Of a DNA stretch of 64,000 nucleotides, positions 5,939 to 26,486 are shown in pieces. How positions within the stretch are numbered: the stretch's first letter is position 1; every line of letters begins with the position of its first letter. The position numbers were made by a program, and so were the translations under genes. Below the pieces are notes generated by a model. The model searched no databases. It had not been told where the DNA came from and worked only from the letters and a program-made list of their open reading frames with translations. The stretch is from Flavobacteriaceae bacterium. Lineage in GTDB: Bacteria; Bacteroidota; Bacteroidia; Flavobacteriales; Weeksellaceae. The stretch is from NCBI GenBank assembly GCA_030538275.1, contig JAUNUH010000005.1, positions 124,001 to 188,000 on the forward strand, given 5' to 3'.

Positions 5939-7659
<1,721 letters not shown>

Positions 7660-8742
7660 TTATTCATTGAAAATATCAATGAGAAGATTTTTTAGTTCTT
7701 CATCATGTTTATTGATTTCTAGGATTTTTCCTTCTGGTGAAATTATGAAGTTTCTGGGAATAAAGGTTATATTATATTTTTTGGCAATTTTGCCTTCAAA
7801 TCCTTTTAGATCCGAAACGTTTTGCCATTGGAAATTCTCTTTTTTGAGCGCTTTTATCAAATCTTCATTTTTTGTATCTAAAGAATAGCTCAATATTTCA
7901 AACCCTTTTTGATTGTATTTCTTGTACAGTTTTTTTAATAATGGAATCTCTTTTCTACAAGGAGCACACCAACTGGCCCAAAAGTCTAATAAAACATATT
8001 TCCCTTTAAAATCTGATAGCTTGATTAATTTATTATTTACATTAAATCCTTCAATTTCTGGTGCTAAATTGCCTATATTCACTGTATTAGGAAATACATA
8101 TAACCTATAATGAATGTCTTTGCCAATGGTATGGTTTTTTAATTCATTCGAGAAATTTTCGAATAGCTTTTTCGAGATGTTGAGAGGGAAAACTTCTATT
8201 TTATCCTTTAACTGTAATAAACTTATAAATGAATTGGGGTTTTTGGAAATGTAACTTTCAGTTGAATCATTAATTAGTTTTGAGTAATAAACATTTTGAT
8301 TTTCATACTTCACAGAATTAATCGAATCATTGTTATTCATTGCTTCCATGGCTTTATCAAAAGAATCATTTAGCATATCATAATAATCCTGGAGACCTTC
8401 ACGAAATGCGCTGTTTTCTTCCATTAACTTAGAACCTGATATTTTTGCAGACCTCATATTTTCTGCATCTGCAATTAGGTTGATATGGCTGTTGTCTAAT
8501 AGAATAGTAGAAATACTTTTGAAATCTTTTACTTTTAAGTAGTGAACATTTGGCTCTGAAAGCTTCCCTTTAAATGTAAAGGAATTATTCCTAATGAGGG
8601 TAGAATCTATTTCAACTTTGGCCGAATTAAGCAAATAAATTGTCTTGTTTTCAGCATTTGAAATTTGACCGGAAATAGTATAGGACTGTGAAAAAATACT
8701 AAATGAACTAAATAATAGTGTGATGAATAAGATTTTCTTCAT
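7660..8742 (-). CDS. TlpA-like thiol-disulfide oxidoreductase with N-terminal DUF4369 domain
   Basis: Predicted periplasmic or cell-surface thioredoxin of 360 residues. Residues 1-19 are a signal peptide (cut after FSIFSQ). A DUF4369-type beta domain (about 20-105) is followed by a helical linker and a thioredoxin/AhpC-TSA domain from about 225, with active-site Cys259 and Cys262 in WASWCAPC and the cis-Pro region FIPRNFII. This two-domain layout is typical for Bacteroidota. It probably reduces envelope disulfides; the partner is unknown. It is monocistronic by position. Confidence 0.9.
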   Translation of the reverse strand: MKKILFITLLFSSFSIFSQSYTISGQISNAENKTIYLLNSAKVEIDSTLIRNNSFTFKGKLSEPNVHYLKVKDFKSISTILLDNSHINLIADAENMRSAKISGSKLMEENSAFREGLQDYYDMLNDSFDKAMEAMNNNDSINSVKYENQNVYYSKLINDSTESYISKNPNSFISLLQLKDKIEVFPLNISKKLFENFSNELKNHTIGKDIHYRLYVFPNTVNIGNLAPEIEGFNVNNKLIKLSDFKGKYVLLDFWASWCAPCRKEIPLLKKLYKKYNQKGFEILSYSLDTKNEDLIKALKKENFQWQNVSDLKGFEGKIAKKYNITFIPRNFIISPEGKILEINKHDEELKNLLIDIFNE

Positions 8743-8834: not shown

Positions 8835-9257
8835 TCAATTCAAAAATCTTTCCTTCATTTCTCTTGTGGGAATCATACAATTTTCTTGCTTCCCAAACCA
8901 TTTATATCTGTTCCTGGAGACAAAGTCATATACGCCATTTCGTACAAAGCGCGGAATTACATAAAAAATTTGAGCCAATTTCCCAATTCCGCCCAAATCA
9001 TTCAAAACCTCCAAAGCCGCATCAGACCTAGTGAATAATCTGCCATTTCTGAGGTATAAAAAAGTATTGAATTCTTGCAAATTCAAGGCGTGTTCTCGCA
9101 ATATCGTCTGTCCAATTTCTGATTGAAGAGAAGAAAATTTCAAAACTTTCTTCTTGTCCCATCGAATCAACCGCTGAATCGTGGCATTACACAAATTGCA
9201 AACACCATCAAATAAAACAAGATTATTTTCTATTTTATATTGTTCTCTTTCAGCCAC
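8835..9257 (-). CDS. DCC family (DUF393) thiol-disulfide oxidoreductase-like protein
   Basis: 140 residues with the family signature LFDGVCNLCN, giving Cys20 and Cys23, and the conserved later block SDAALEVLNDLGG and C-terminal YRWFGK. The family is named for its Asp-x-x-Cys-x-x-Cys motif and is predicted to be a thioredoxin-fold protein; no reaction is proven. The only in-frame start is a GTG at 9257, lying inside the 3' end of mltG, so the two genes overlap by 28 bases and are probably translationally coupled. Confidence 0.87.
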   Translation of the reverse strand: MAEREQYKIENNLVLFDGVCNLCNATIQRLIRWDKKKVLKFSSLQSEIGQTILREHALNLQEFNTFLYLRNGRLFTRSDAALEVLNDLGGIGKLAQIFYVIPRFVRNGVYDFVSRNRYKWFGKQENCMIPTREMKERFLN

Positions 9258-13819: not shown

Positions 13820-13995
13820 CTTTAAAAAAGCATTCGGTACAAATCTGCTACTGTACCCAAGGTTTCTACCCGAATTTGGTGGTTAGAAGTTTTGATTTTA
13901 TTAAATTTTGAAATATAAATAACATCATATCCCAATTTTTCAGCCTCTACAATACGTTGCTCTACACGGTTGACGGGTCTTATTTCTCTGCTCAC
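13820..13995 (-). pseudogene. second copy of the radA 3' end (radA fragment)
   Basis: This 176-bp stretch matches 14627-14802, the last 58 codons and stop of radA, with no gaps and about 5 mismatches (offset 807). In frame it encodes EIRPVNRVEQRIVEAEKLGY and onward to ADLYRMLF and the stop, so the frame is intact, but no upstream radA domains are attached. An open frame reaching 14049 adds about 19 unrelated residues and overlaps the uma2 stop; it is not likely a functional gene. The copy brackets the uma2 gene with the genuine radA 3' end. Confidence 0.9.
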
Positions 13996-14026
13996 TATTT
14001 TCAAAAGGTTTTTTAAATAAGGTGGT

Positions 14027-14614
14027 TTAAAAAATAAGTGCAAGTTCAAATTTCAGTTCCGGAAATATAAAACTTGAGAGGATATCGCCTTCGGTTACCG
14101 GTTTTTTACCGATAAATTTGCCGTTTTCTGCAACATAAATAAGAACGGATTTGTCGCTTGGATCAATAATCCAGTATTCACGAACACCATTTTCTTCATA
14201 TAAATCGAACTTCAGCGTCTTGTCTTTTTTTGAAGTGCCTGGTGAAAGGATTTCTACAATTAAATCGGGTGCAGCAATTCCGCCTTGATAATCTGTTTTA
14301 TTTTCGCCACAAAAAATGCAGAAATCCGGTTGAACTACTGTTGTTATAAATTCATTACTCTCATTGGTTTTACCCAGCCTCAAGTCAAATGGTGCGGCAA
14401 ATACTTCACACCCTTTTTGATATACCGAATTATAAAAAATACCACTAAGTGCAAATGAAATTTGTTGATGATATTTTGTCGGAGCAGGGCTCATTCTGAA
14501 AATCTGGCCCCGAATCAGTTCCACTCTTTCCTCAAACCGCCAACGCAAATAGTCTGCATAGGAATACAGTTTGTTAAAATCCAGCTCGTTGATATCGTAG
14601 ATTAATTCAGACAT
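14027..14614 (-). CDS. Uma2 family (DUF820) PD-(D/E)XK nuclease-like protein
   Basis: 195 residues matching the Uma2/DUF820 family, which has a restriction-endonuclease-like fold. The core block PDLIVEILSPGTSKKDKTLK (about residues 112-131) carries the Asp and Glu of the predicted active site, followed by the family motif GVREYWIIDP. No substrate is proven for the family. The gene is flanked by two copies of the radA 3' end, with its own -7 box squeezed into the few bases between its ATG and the stop of radA. This placement suggests that it arrived as an insertion at the radA end. Confidence 0.88.
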   Translation of the reverse strand: MSELIYDINELDFNKLYSYADYLRWRFEERVELIRGQIFRMSPAPTKYHQQISFALSGIFYNSVYQKGCEVFAAPFDLRLGKTNESNEFITTVVQPDFCIFCGENKTDYQGGIAAPDLIVEILSPGTSKKDKTLKFDLYEENGVREYWIIDPSDKSVLIYVAENGKFIGKKPVTEGDILSSFIFPELKFELALIF

Positions 14615-14618
14615 AGAA

Positions 14619-14626
14619 CAAATATA
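14619..14626 (-). promoter_or_regulatory. -7 promoter box of uma2 (leaderless type)
   Basis: Minus strand TATATTTG ends 4 bases before the uma2 ATG and lies between that ATG and the repeat edge at 14627. A -7 box this close predicts transcription starting at about the ATG. Confidence 0.5.
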
Positions 14627-14628
14627 CT

Positions 14629-15984
14629 TTAAAAAAGCATTCGGTACAAATCTGCTACCGTACCCAGGGTTTCTACCCGAATTTGGTGGTTAGAAGTTTT
14701 GAATTTATTAAATTTTGAAATAAAAATAACATCATATCCCAATTTTTCAGCCTCTACAATACGTTGCTCTACACGGTTGACGGGTCTTATTTCTCCGCTC
14801 AAACCCACTTCGGCTGCAAAACAGCAATTATCGGGTAATGCTTGATTTTCGTAAGAAGATAACACGGCGCAAATAACCGCCAAATCAATAGCGGGGTCAT
14901 CCACCCGAATGCCACCTGTGATATTGAGAAAAACGTCTTTGGCGCCCAATTGAAATCCGGCGCGTTTTTCTAAAACGGCGAGTAACATATTTAGTCTTTT
15001 GGTATCAAATCCGGTAGTAGAACGTTGTGGAGTTCCATATACTGCGGTACTCACCAATGCTTGAATTTCGATCAACATCGGACGAATTCCTTCCATGGTG
15101 GCGGCGATGGCATTTCCGCTAAGGGCATGGTCTTTGGCAGAAATTAGTACTTCAGACGGATTAGAAACTTCTCTCAACCCGTTGCCTTGCATTTCATAAA
15201 TTCCTAATTCAGAGGTGGATCCAAAACGGTTTTTTTGAGCACGTAAAAGTCGATAAATATGATTGCGTTCGCCTTCAAACTGTAAAACCACATCTACCAT
15301 GTGTTCCAAAATTTTGGGGCCTGCAATCGTCCCTTCCTTGGTAATATGCCCTACAACAATCACCGGCGTGTTGGTTTCTTTGGCGTATTTGATCAATTCT
15401 GCAGTACATTGACGAATTTGTGAAACACTTCCCGGGGCAGATTCAACATAGTGTGATTCAAGGGTTTGAATAGAATCTATTATCAGAATGTCCGGCTTTA
15501 TGTTTTTGGCTTGTTTAAAGATTTTCTGCGTTTGTGTTTCCGTCAAAATATAGCATTCTTCAGTTTGAATTCCAATACGTTCGGCACGTAATTTTATCTG
15601 CGAAGCGCTTTCTTCGCCGGAAATATAGAGTACTTTTTGTTGAGGTAAACTCAAGGCAACTTGCAGCAAGAGCGTTGATTTTCCGATTCCGGGTTCGCCG
15701 CCGAGTAATATGACAGAGCCCAGTACAATTCCACCGCCCAAAACCCGGTCTAGTTCATGGTTTTGCGTAACAATGCGCATTTCACCCGTTTGTGGAATTT
15801 CATGTATATTAAACAAAACAGGTGTCTTGGATTGCTCTTCTTGCCAAGGTTTTTCCTGAACATTTTTTTCCACAACTTCTTCTACAATTGTGTTCCATTG
15901 GCCGCAATTGTTGCATTTGCCCATCCACGTAGCGTGTTGGGTGCCGCAATTTTGACAATAATAAATGGTTTTTGCCTTTGCCAT
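14629..15984 (-). CDS. radA: DNA repair protein RadA (Sms)
   Basis: ATP-dependent DNA branch-migration protein used in recombination. 451 residues, full length. An N-terminal C4 zinc finger (Cys10, 13, 24, 27), Walker A GGEPGIGKS (95-103), the RadA-specific KNRFG motif near 250 and a C-terminal Lon protease-like domain are all present. Residues about 395-451 are encoded by the segment duplicated at 13820-13995. A -7 box ends 4 bases before the ATG, predicting a leaderless mRNA. The gene itself looks intact despite the neighbouring insertion. Confidence 0.96.
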   Translation of the reverse strand: MAKAKTIYYCQNCGTQHATWMGKCNNCGQWNTIVEEVVEKNVQEKPWQEEQSKTPVLFNIHEIPQTGEMRIVTQNHELDRVLGGGIVLGSVILLGGEPGIGKSTLLLQVALSLPQQKVLYISGEESASQIKLRAERIGIQTEECYILTETQTQKIFKQAKNIKPDILIIDSIQTLESHYVESAPGSVSQIRQCTAELIKYAKETNTPVIVVGHITKEGTIAGPKILEHMVDVVLQFEGERNHIYRLLRAQKNRFGSTSELGIYEMQGNGLREVSNPSEVLISAKDHALSGNAIAATMEGIRPMLIEIQALVSTAVYGTPQRSTTGFDTKRLNMLLAVLEKRAGFQLGAKDVFLNITGGIRVDDPAIDLAVICAVLSSYENQALPDNCCFAAEVGLSGEIRPVNRVEQRIVEAEKLGYDVIFISKFNKFKTSNHQIRVETLGTVADLYRMLF

Positions 15985-23917: not shown

Positions 23918-25057
23918 ATGAAAAATATTTTAAAATATATTGGGATTTTGCTACCCATGCTTTTTATATTCTCTTGTGAGGATGATAAAGAACTAACTTA
24001 TGCCATTCCCACTAATGCGCCAATAGTACTCGAAGCTGAAAATACTTCTGTGAATTTGGATGCTAATTATAAGAATACGCCTGCCTTGACCTTGGTTTGG
24101 TCGCATGCAGATTATAATGTGCAAACATTACCTAGTTATACGATTCAATTTGGACTTAATTCCAATTTTGAAAATGCCGTGGATGTAATTACACTTTCAA
24201 ACCGGTCTTATACTTGGACAGTAGAGCAATTGAATAATCAAGTTCAAGCCATGGGAATGCCACCGAATGAGATTGGGAATTTATTCATAAGAGTAGTTTC
24301 TTCTTTAGGAAATCAACAACAATTACCTATGACATCAAATGTGGTGTCATTTGACATGGTTCCGTATGTAACTTATGCATTTGATGATTATTACATGGTA
24401 GGAAATGCTACAGCTGCAGGTTGGAACCCGAACAACAACAATCAGGCACTTTTTAGAGATCCGAATAATGAGAATTTATTCCACTTTACGGGTTATTTTG
24501 ACAGTGCTGATGCCGGAAATATAAATGAAGGTAGATTCAAATTAATCGAAATTCTCGGAATGTGGCAACCACAATGGGGTGACAAGAGACCAGAAGGTGA
24601 GGATACTATTGTGGCCGTAGGTGAAGTTGCAGGAAATCCAGCAACCCAAGGTGGTGATCCGGGTAGATTTGGCGTGCCAGCATCAGGTTACTATACATTC
24701 GGAATCAATTTTGAAACATTATCTTATACTGTAACACCCTACGACGCATCAGGCGCAGCAGTGTATAATACTATAGGAATTATAGGTGACGCTACTCCAA
24801 ACGGTTGGGATTCAGATATTAACATGATGCGAAATGAAGCCCACGATCCCCATAATTGGTATGCACAAAACGTAACCTTGGTCAATGGCGCTATTAAATT
24901 CAGAGCCAATGACGATTGGGATGTGAATTGGGGCGGAACGACAGCTTATAGCGGTACAGGAACTCTTGGCGGTGATAATATTACTGTAACTTCTGGCGTG
25001 TACAATATATGGTTTAATGATTTGACAGGTGATTATCAATTAATTCCTCAAGATTAA
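23918..25057 (+). CDS. SusE/SusF-like surface glycan-binding lipoprotein (first copy)
   Basis: 379 residues. Lipobox FIFSCED, then a SusE N-terminal domain (about 30-145; LVWSHADYN, YTIQFGLN) and two tandem carbohydrate-binding-like modules (about 155-280 and 285-379), each starting with a G-x-A-T-x-x-GW pattern (YYMVGNATAAGWNPNNNNQ; IGIIGDATPNGWDSD). Tryptophans in these loops are the kind used to bind sugar rings. It is a paralogue of the next gene, very similar over the C-terminal half. Third gene of the operon. Confidence 0.88.
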   Translation: MKNILKYIGILLPMLFIFSCEDDKELTYAIPTNAPIVLEAENTSVNLDANYKNTPALTLVWSHADYNVQTLPSYTIQFGLNSNFENAVDVITLSNRSYTWTVEQLNNQVQAMGMPPNEIGNLFIRVVSSLGNQQQLPMTSNVVSFDMVPYVTYAFDDYYMVGNATAAGWNPNNNNQALFRDPNNENLFHFTGYFDSADAGNINEGRFKLIEILGMWQPQWGDKRPEGEDTIVAVGEVAGNPATQGGDPGRFGVPASGYYTFGINFETLSYTVTPYDASGAAVYNTIGIIGDATPNGWDSDINMMRNEAHDPHNWYAQNVTLVNGAIKFRANDDWDVNWGGTTAYSGTGTLGGDNITVTSGVYNIWFNDLTGDYQLIPQD

Positions 25058-25061
25058 TACA

Positions 25062-26486
25062 ATGAAAAACATTTTTAAAATATTCACATTCCTGTTCATC
25101 CCATTTTTAATTGTGGGATGCTCAGATGACGAGATTGCTCCTATCATTGAAGCAAGTGATCTAAGGTTGGTCGACCCGGGTATTACAACTCTTACCCTCA
25201 ATCTAAATACGCCTGATGTAAACGCTCTGGTTCTATCATGGGACGATTTTTCGGGTTATACGGGTCAATATTCAGTGCAAATTGCAAAAGATGCCTCTTT
25301 TGAGAATTGGATTGAATTGGGAACGACTTCCAATAATAATTTCGCATTGAATATGGCTCATTTTAATGCTATAATTAATCAATTAGACATTACACCATAT
25401 TTGGCTTCTACCGTATATATTCGGGTAAACAATGGTGCTCTCACCTCCAACAGTATTTTCTTTAATGTAAAATCATATCCATTGTCTGGACCGGTAATCA
25501 CCACACCACAAGGTGGATTGGAAATTGCAATTAATTCAGAAACTCCCAATGATCAAGCCATTCAAATTTCATGGGACGACTATGGATATGGAAGTACTGA
25601 TGCCAATGTGACTTACATTGTTCAAATGGCTTTGGCTGGAACCAATTTTGCCAATCCTGTAGTGTTGAGCAATACATCAAACACCAGTATCACTATTTCA
25701 CATGCAGATTTGAATAACTATGCAATGGCAGCAGGAATCGGTGAGTTGAGCACAGCCGAAGTAGAAATTAGAGTGCTATCTATGATAAATGCCACAACAG
25801 GCGAAACCTTACAGTTTGTAAGTGTTTCTGTAAGCGTGAGCATTACCACGGCAGAAGGAGGAATCCAATATTTTTACCTAGTAGGTGAAGCTGTGGCAGC
25901 GGGTTGGAATCCGAATAATAATAATCAACCATTGTTTAATGACGCTGCTAATCCAGCTACAGCATACTTCACAGGTAGATTTTTGCCAGGTGGATTCAAA
26001 GTCATTGAAGAATTAGGAAATTGGCAGCCACAATGGGGATCTAATGATGGTTCAACGCTTGCTCTCAACGATGGAAGCGGAAATGACCCAGATGTGTTTT
26101 CGACTCCGTCTGAGGGTTATTATACTTTTACCTTTAATTCTCAAGGTAGTGGTGGAACTTTTAGCCTCACACCGTTTGATGCCAGTGGCGCAGCAACCTA
26201 TTCCACTATTGGAATTATAGGTGATGCTACTGCCGACGGATGGAACAGCGACCAGGATATGACGCAATCTGATTTTGACCCGCATATTTGGTATGCGCAT
26301 AATGTGAATTTGAGCGGTGGCGAAATCAAATTCAGAGCAGAGAATGGTTGGGATATTAATTGGGGCGCAAATACTCCATTATTTGGTCAGGGAACACCAG
26401 GTGGGCCAAATATTCCTGTTGATGCAGGGGTTTATCATATCTGGTTCAATGACTTAGATGGTAGATATATTTTAATTGCGCAATAG
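25062..26486 (+). CDS. SusE/SusF-like surface glycan-binding lipoprotein (second copy)
   Basis: 474 residues, starting 5 bases after the previous stop. Lipobox LIVGCSDD. It carries one extra Ig-like SusE-type domain (about 140-265; IQISWDDYGYG) compared with the first copy, then the same pair of binding modules (YYLVGEAVAAGWNPNNNNQ-like and IGIIGDATADGWNSD) to the C-terminus. The near-equal module sequences show a tandem duplication. Last gene of the operon; a terminator follows. No glycoside hydrolase, transporter or regulator gene follows, so the enzyme must be encoded elsewhere. Confidence 0.87.
   Translation: MKNIFKIFTFLFIPFLIVGCSDDEIAPIIEASDLRLVDPGITTLTLNLNTPDVNALVLSWDDFSGYTGQYSVQIAKDASFENWIELGTTSNNNFALNMAHFNAIINQLDITPYLASTVYIRVNNGALTSNSIFFNVKSYPLSGPVITTPQGGLEIAINSETPNDQAIQISWDDYGYGSTDANVTYIVQMALAGTNFANPVVLSNTSNTSITISHADLNNYAMAAGIGELSTAEVEIRVLSMINATTGETLQFVSVSVSVSITTAEGGIQYFYLVGEAVAAGWNPNNNNQPLFNDAANPATAYFTGRFLPGGFKVIEELGNWQPQWGSNDGSTLALNDGSGNDPDVFSTPSEGYYTFTFNSQGSGGTFSLTPFDASGAATYSTIGIIGDATADGWNSDQDMTQSDFDPHIWYAHNVNLSGGEIKFRAENGWDINWGANTPLFGQGTPGGPNIPVDAGVYHIWFNDLDGRYILIAQ

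Follow-up and report, generated by a model that had tools for sequence, protein, structure and literature searches.

A solitary uma2 gene in the genome of a Flavobacteriaceae bacterium lies between two copies of the 3′ end of radA, and this arrangement is not a one-off: brackets around lone uma2 genes recur in Bacteroidota. Genes for defence and toxin–antitoxin functions turn over fast, yet many of them are solitary, embedded in core DNA that shows no mobile element nearby. A bracket of core-gene ends would be a readable scar of the arrival of such genes, and the repeat would also offer them a ready exit route. We consider it likely that lone predicted defence-type genes enter genomes by way of core-gene ends and without an integrase of their own. 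As to the route, we favor, with a probability of about 0.5, the arrival of uma2 as a small circle composed of the radA 3′ end and uma2, which would have been taken up by one homologous crossover with the resident radA.

The radA–uma2 locus

The window, by which we mean the whole 64-kb stretch of DNA that was analyzed, carries the locus on its minus strand, in the order radA (15984-14629), 12 bp, uma2 (14614-14027), 31 bp, and copy 1 of the radA end (13995-13820). The target gene, radA (14629..15984), is intact and encodes 451 amino acids with AAA/Lon-type domains; RadA matches were found in 58 of the 59 genomes searched. Its own 3′ end, together with the stop codon and two further bases, forms copy 2 (14627..14802); the start of uma2 is 12 bp away from it, and 31 bp separate the uma2 stop from copy 1 (13820..13995). 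The preliminary description had reported a gapless 176-bp repeat of the radA end with about five differences and nothing except uma2 in the 631 bases between the copies, and both statements were confirmed. The direct repeat (13820-13994 / 14627-14801) aligns without gaps over 175 nt at 97% identity with five internal differences, which become six when the edge base included in the 176 nt is added, and the 631-bp insert (13996..14626) contains uma2 (14027-14614, PF05685) as its sole content. In a self-BLAST of the 64-kb window (E ≤ 1e-6), the radA-end repeat was the only direct repeat of more than 80% identity within 6 kb, and its E value of 1.9e-79 excludes a chance origin. A second direct repeat in the window (24723-24808 / 26158-26243, 86 nt, 71%) is probably a repeated domain within or between genes. 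The neighboring proteins scanned comprised RadA, a 2-hydroxyacid dehydrogenase, an OmpA-family protein, and a 67-aa ORF without a match.

The junction itself may matter for expression. Directly at it, on the minus strand, stands TATATTTG (14619..14626), which fits the consensus of the Bacteroidota −7 box, and the partner motif TTTG (14647-14650) lies 20 nt upstream. Since the box falls within the 12 bp before the uma2 ATG and TTTG falls inside the radA end, the promoter of uma2 could be a hybrid made by the junction, part radA end and part insert.

The two radA ends are not equivalent. Codon 397 specifies Arg in copy 1 but Gly in the 28 radA homologues printed, and codon 421 specifies Tyr in copy 1 but Phe in six relatives. 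Copy 1 departs from the homologues at these two codons; copy 2 is the working end of radA and copy 1 a decaying remnant. Codon 428 differs in the opposite sense: copy 1 reads ATC, like two of the six relatives, and copy 2 reads TTC, a codon that all six lack. Both copies have probably been altered since the duplication.

Uma2, a predicted nuclease of 195 amino acids with the PD-(D/E)XK fold, matched PF05685 with E 2.8e-32 and 112 bits, against a curated Pfam cut-off of 27, and the PADLOC candidate family PDC-S03 with E 4.5e-47; the NCBIfam search with Uma2 gave no match. A profile built from 14 relatives found three solved sequences (9y1l, 6okh, and 3ot2). The columns that do not vary in the alignment of the 14 sequences include D97, E121, and K135, which we assign to a PD-(D/E)XK-like site as its conserved acidic residues and its lysine; they are candidates for catalysis. 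The nearest relative in a large protein database is 89% identical, and the others among the 120 matches listed reach at most 60%. Within the family, 34 of 320 genomes, counting this one, gave a match; the other two genomes of the genus (G001 and G002) lack the gene. Several uma2 copies in its own genome had been considered, and a single one was found. Elsewhere, tandem copies occur: one genome (G026 C1:50455-52802; L048, L052, L054, L056, L057) carries three closely similar tandem uma2 genes plus fragments with a period of ~0.61 kb, and tandem pairs are present in G103 and G174.

Recurrence of brackets around lone genes

For the survey, uma2 loci were gathered by searching the relatives, the family, the order, and the class, plus GTDB contigs, one of the searches contributing the best 80 of 573 matches. 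A gene was counted as bracketed when a two-copy direct repeat of 30–350 bp lay at most 600 bp from it on each side. This was the case for 12 of 212 unique Bacteroidota uma2 genes, leaving 200 without a clean bracket; four more uma2 genes (L173, L234, L279, and L280) have repeats with further copies. As a control we used 411 other ORFs of 100–400 aa from uma2 loci and DinB_2 loci, and only two of them were bracketed, both mobile- or toxin-type genes. One (L136) is a PIN-like gene, its PIN match below the cut-off, that adjoins a UPF0175 gene (E 1.9e-20), and the other (L213) resembles REP-associated transposases, just below that family's cut-off. The excess at uma2 was significant by a one-sided Fisher test (p 8.7e-5), also when L274 was removed and L087 was merged with L089 (10/211, p 5.7e-4), and it partly mirrors the fact that most ORFs are old residents rather than equally recent gains. 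An earlier, looser control gave 9 of 138 uma2 ORFs and 2 of 310 other ORFs. The DinB_2 genes, meant as a patchy control, turned out to be present in 136 of 149 genomes and are thus a weak one; none of their 28 loci was bracketed, and the comparison of uma2 with DinB_2 alone, which involves too few loci, was not significant (p 0.22). Among 38 UPF0175–PIN loci, five were bracketed within 600 bp and seven within 1000 bp, and L373 has a repeat with a further partner.

We count eight firm independent uma2 events: L001, L072 with L094, L087 with L089 (one shared event), L098, L113, L130, L282, and L296. Several candidates were dropped or set apart. In L274 and L286 the repeat is itself uma2-like sequence, a piece of it in the former and coding sequence in the latter; L128 is a tandem uma2 pair; in L176 uma2 is broken; and in L145, a bracketed GxxExxY gene of the looser control, the repeat is built of repeated units. 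GxxExxY genes (PF13366) were tried as a third bracketed family and left uncounted, with one clean and ten multi-copy brackets among 31, since most of the printed repeats consist of short palindrome-like units in series and are thus different in kind. These nuclease genes (L239, L240, L249, L250, L252, L262, and others) sit between multi-copy units such as CCACGGAGAACACAGAG; such arrays recall REP elements and their transposase, and may represent a separate phenomenon. At L136:1932-2934, the UPF0175 and PIN-like genes are bracketed by a 100-bp, 95% repeat and directly adjoin a uma2 gene, as if insertions accumulated there.

The bracketing repeats range from 34 to 181 bp and vary in sequence and in target gene. 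Around uma2, the repeat is the radA 3′ end at the present locus, the sufD 3′ end (SufBD domains) in two Flavobacterium records (L087 and L089), the 5′ end of a response-regulator-like gene, presumably porX, in L296, part of a SnoaL/DUF4440 gene in L113, a hairpin-like sequence behind a gene in L072/L094 and in L130, and an intergenic segment in L282. In L098 it is a promoter-like sequence that belongs to the downstream gene, repeated perfectly over 34 bp, and uma2 would thereby gain a copy of a promoter. Around UPF0175, it is the 3′ end of a 304-aa gene in L347, of another gene in L353, and of a presumably methylmalonyl-CoA mutase-like gene in L372; in L373 it lies at the end of a presumably amidase-like gene, and in L340 and L343 it is intergenic. 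L350 and L354 (G740 and G937), two genomes of one genus, share the 3′ end of the same gene, presumably ettA-like, around UPF0175–PIN pairs that have diverged, and this gene end is possibly an insertion hot spot.

Eight of the cases concern a coding 3′ end (radA, sufD, L347, L350, L353, L354, L372, and L373), and in six of them the outer edge of the repeat lies no more than 3 nt from the stop codon. At sufD, L353, and L372 the copies diverge inside the stop, as TA|G on the cargo side versus TA|A on the native side; at L347 the stop diverges as T|AA versus T|GA; at L350 the first difference comes directly after TGA; and at radA the edge is two bases past TAA. Of the other two, L354 continues ~60 bp beyond, across a hairpin-like sequence, and the aligned repeat in L373 stops ~10 nt short of the stop codon. 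The inner edge falls at varying positions within the gene from case to case.

The sister species G001 offers a parallel at the other end of radA. Its locus (L058) contains the radA 5′ end three times, at 6648-6694 (47 nt), at 7563-7783, and in the working gene at 8994-9220. Between the copies lie a 305-aa ORF, the largest, and two further small ORFs. For the 305-aa ORF, Pfam and NCBIfam gave no match and PADLOC gave only a weak one (LeoBC, E 4.7e-5). This series upstream of radA (L058:6648-9220) suggests that two insertions struck the gene end in succession; within the genus, radA ends have probably captured DNA on more than one occasion, and a nuclease need not be involved. In G009 (C1:23161-23829), radA matches in only two pieces (residues 1-176 and 405-451), and the gene seems to be internally deleted.

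Routes into a core-gene end

A matched empty site exists at sufD. In Flavobacterium G682 (L188), sufD is followed ~0.18 kb on by a DUF5995 gene, without uma2. L087 and L089 match L188 on the left side up to the sufD stop; L087 has its uma2 unit, ~0.72 kb, after this stop, and in both records the L188 sequence restarts ~76 bp before the sufD end and continues into DUF5995. Owing to a few chance matches past the stop, the BLAST joins show an overlap of 84 bp. The empty and the filled state are one step apart, insertion plus duplication, and for L188 itself the reverse, deletion between the repeats, is also conceivable. The L087 unit opens with a hairpin behind the sufD stop that differs in sequence from the native L188 hairpin there; this would fit the donor's own sufD end. 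In L086, sufD–uma2 is followed on the right by other DNA and no second sufD copy, which is equally consistent with a donor-like state and with loss of the second copy. It is also the partial counterpart, at sufD, of a configuration that the preliminary description had set against its own reading, namely relatives with uma2 at a single radA end. An exact empty site at radA, as that description had proposed to look for, was not found: G001 and G002 have a single radA 3′ end and no uma2, and the DNA downstream does not match the flank in the window.

From the bracket with its functional and its decayed copy, the recurrence, the one matched empty site, and the edges at stop codons, we infer the following route. 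A linear piece of DNA from a related cell, with one break within radA and the other shortly after uma2, would have entered the cell, and its ends would have been joined into a circle of ~0.8 kb, which RecA-type recombination could then have put into the radA end. Such an event would leave radA whole, uma2 behind the radA stop codon, and one copy of the radA end displaced downstream. The inner repeat edge would be a random break and hence variable, and the outer edge would mark the end of the match between donor and recipient, which for donors of other species would be the stop codon. Neither an integrase nor any activity of Uma2 would be needed, and the kind of cargo observed would be explained if selection favors a nuclease that is selfish or defensive. 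Since G001 repeats the radA 5′ end three times around other ORFs, the largest of which matches neither Pfam nor NCBIfam, the route looks independent of the cargo and Uma2 need not be its agent. The earlier suggestion that Uma2 itself is involved thus appears unnecessary, the same signature being found at UPF0175–PIN loci as well as around the G001 ORFs. What remains of the preliminary reading is an integrase-free insertion that keeps the 3′ end of its target, or else recombination with a radA end from elsewhere, both in line with the recurrence and the sufD empty site.

Against capture of a circle stand the radA copies themselves, which are 97% alike, as a donor of the same species should match past the stop codon too. 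A radA–uma2 donor was not found either: the radA C-terminus lies beside none of the 216 other fetched uma2 loci, some of which overlap, and an exact empty radA site is likewise missing. Moreover, 200 of the 212 uma2 genes lack a clean bracket, and some repeats are hairpin-like, promoter-like, or intergenic rather than gene ends. It is here that a true target duplication, in which a break with long overhangs is filled around the cargo as for restriction–modification genes, has its strength, for the 34-bp promoter-like and the hairpin-like repeats then require no homologous donor. The bracketed cargo is mostly nuclease or toxin–antitoxin genes, and the signature agrees with the long, variable duplications of ~100 bp described for restriction–modification genes (PMC3874152, PMC1643837). 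This explanation is a possible one, to which we give clearly less weight than to the circle. It accounts for the edges at stop codons by selection only, and the bracketed ORFs of G001 include the 305-aa one that matches neither Pfam nor NCBIfam. The varied inner edge, the stop-codon outer edge, the L087 hairpin, L086, and G001 together lead us to prefer the single crossover.

The remaining explanations are improbable to different degrees. Tandem duplication of a radA end–uma2 segment, at a time when uma2 was already behind radA, with later loss of the second uma2, is unlikely. Tandem uma2 arrays do exist (G026, L128), but the right sufD copy passes gapless into the flank of the empty site with no uma2 remnant between, and none was detected next to copy 1 within the 64-kb window. 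The geometry, with the target 3′ end left whole, would suit a site-specific integrative element whose att sites lay in the radA end and whose integrase has been lost; however, the 631-bp insert carries one gene and no integrase, and the other brackets, judged from the sequences printed, share neither a common core nor a common target. As repeats, lengths, and targets all differ, we regard this part of the preliminary reading as very improbable. An assembly artefact hardly deserves credence, even in a draft of 20 contigs, given that the copies differ at five internal sites and that independent genomes share the architecture.

A bolder extension of the circle route is that solitary defence-type nucleases and toxin–antitoxin pairs are minimal, recombinase-free mobile units, each made of cargo plus a core-gene 3′ end, that circle out via the repeat and, with the help of host recombination, enter a new cell's copy of that gene at its stop codon, with the radA and sufD ends as general attachment sites. 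We put this forward as a speculation and rather doubt it.

Relation to known systems

If general, the bracket would extend a signature of restriction–modification genes to Uma2 (PADLOC PDC-S03) and UPF0175–PIN (PDC-S70) genes, and simply scanning genomes would be enough to test how single integrase-free genes spread, a long-standing question. Insertion with long target duplication was reportedly described for restriction–modification genes of Helicobacter pylori by Nobusato et al. 2000 and Furuta et al. 2010. The long flanking duplication is present here (175 bp, 97%) and the restriction–modification cargo is not; none of the neighboring ORFs examined encodes a methyltransferase. By analogy, the uma2 unit would work like these insertions, and we do not class it as a mobile restriction–modification system. 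Restriction–modification inserts are flanked by long, variable target duplications of ~100 bp (PMC3874152, PMC1643837). Common to both are long variable direct repeats of the target and moves unlinked to a known mobile element, whereas in our cases the cargo is a lone uma2 gene or, elsewhere, a UPF0175–PIN pair, the hosts are Bacteroidota, and the edge lies at stop codons.

The Uma2 family (COG4636) has been described as a likely solo toxin that occurs mostly in cassettes of paralogues (PMC2701414). The present gene belongs to the same protein family and is solitary, with tandem copies in G026, and the passage that describes the family is silent on how the genes insert. No title among those listed in a literature search on Uma2 concerned its mobility, and no paper was found for PDC-S03.

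Two recombination systems come close to the proposed route. When linear DNA was circularized and integrated into E. coli by a single crossover, a PCR product of gene-end duplication was obtained in 56 of 60 clones, and the duplications in the 14 sequenced were 109–950 bp long (PMC3240628). A partial duplication of the homologous gene end around the cargo is likewise present at radA, at sufD, and in the other 3′-end cases. Both situations thus share such a duplication around incoming DNA without an integrase, but the E. coli experiment used laboratory plasmid DNA, whereas ours would be a natural insertion by a putative circle. In Vibrio cholerae, gene ends at T6SS and Rhs loci are displaced by homology-facilitated illegitimate recombination (PMC5361080). 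There too, homology anchors one end and old parts are pushed downstream, serially as at radA of G001; the coding end is swapped for a different one in V. cholerae, however, whereas in the present cases it is duplicated unchanged.
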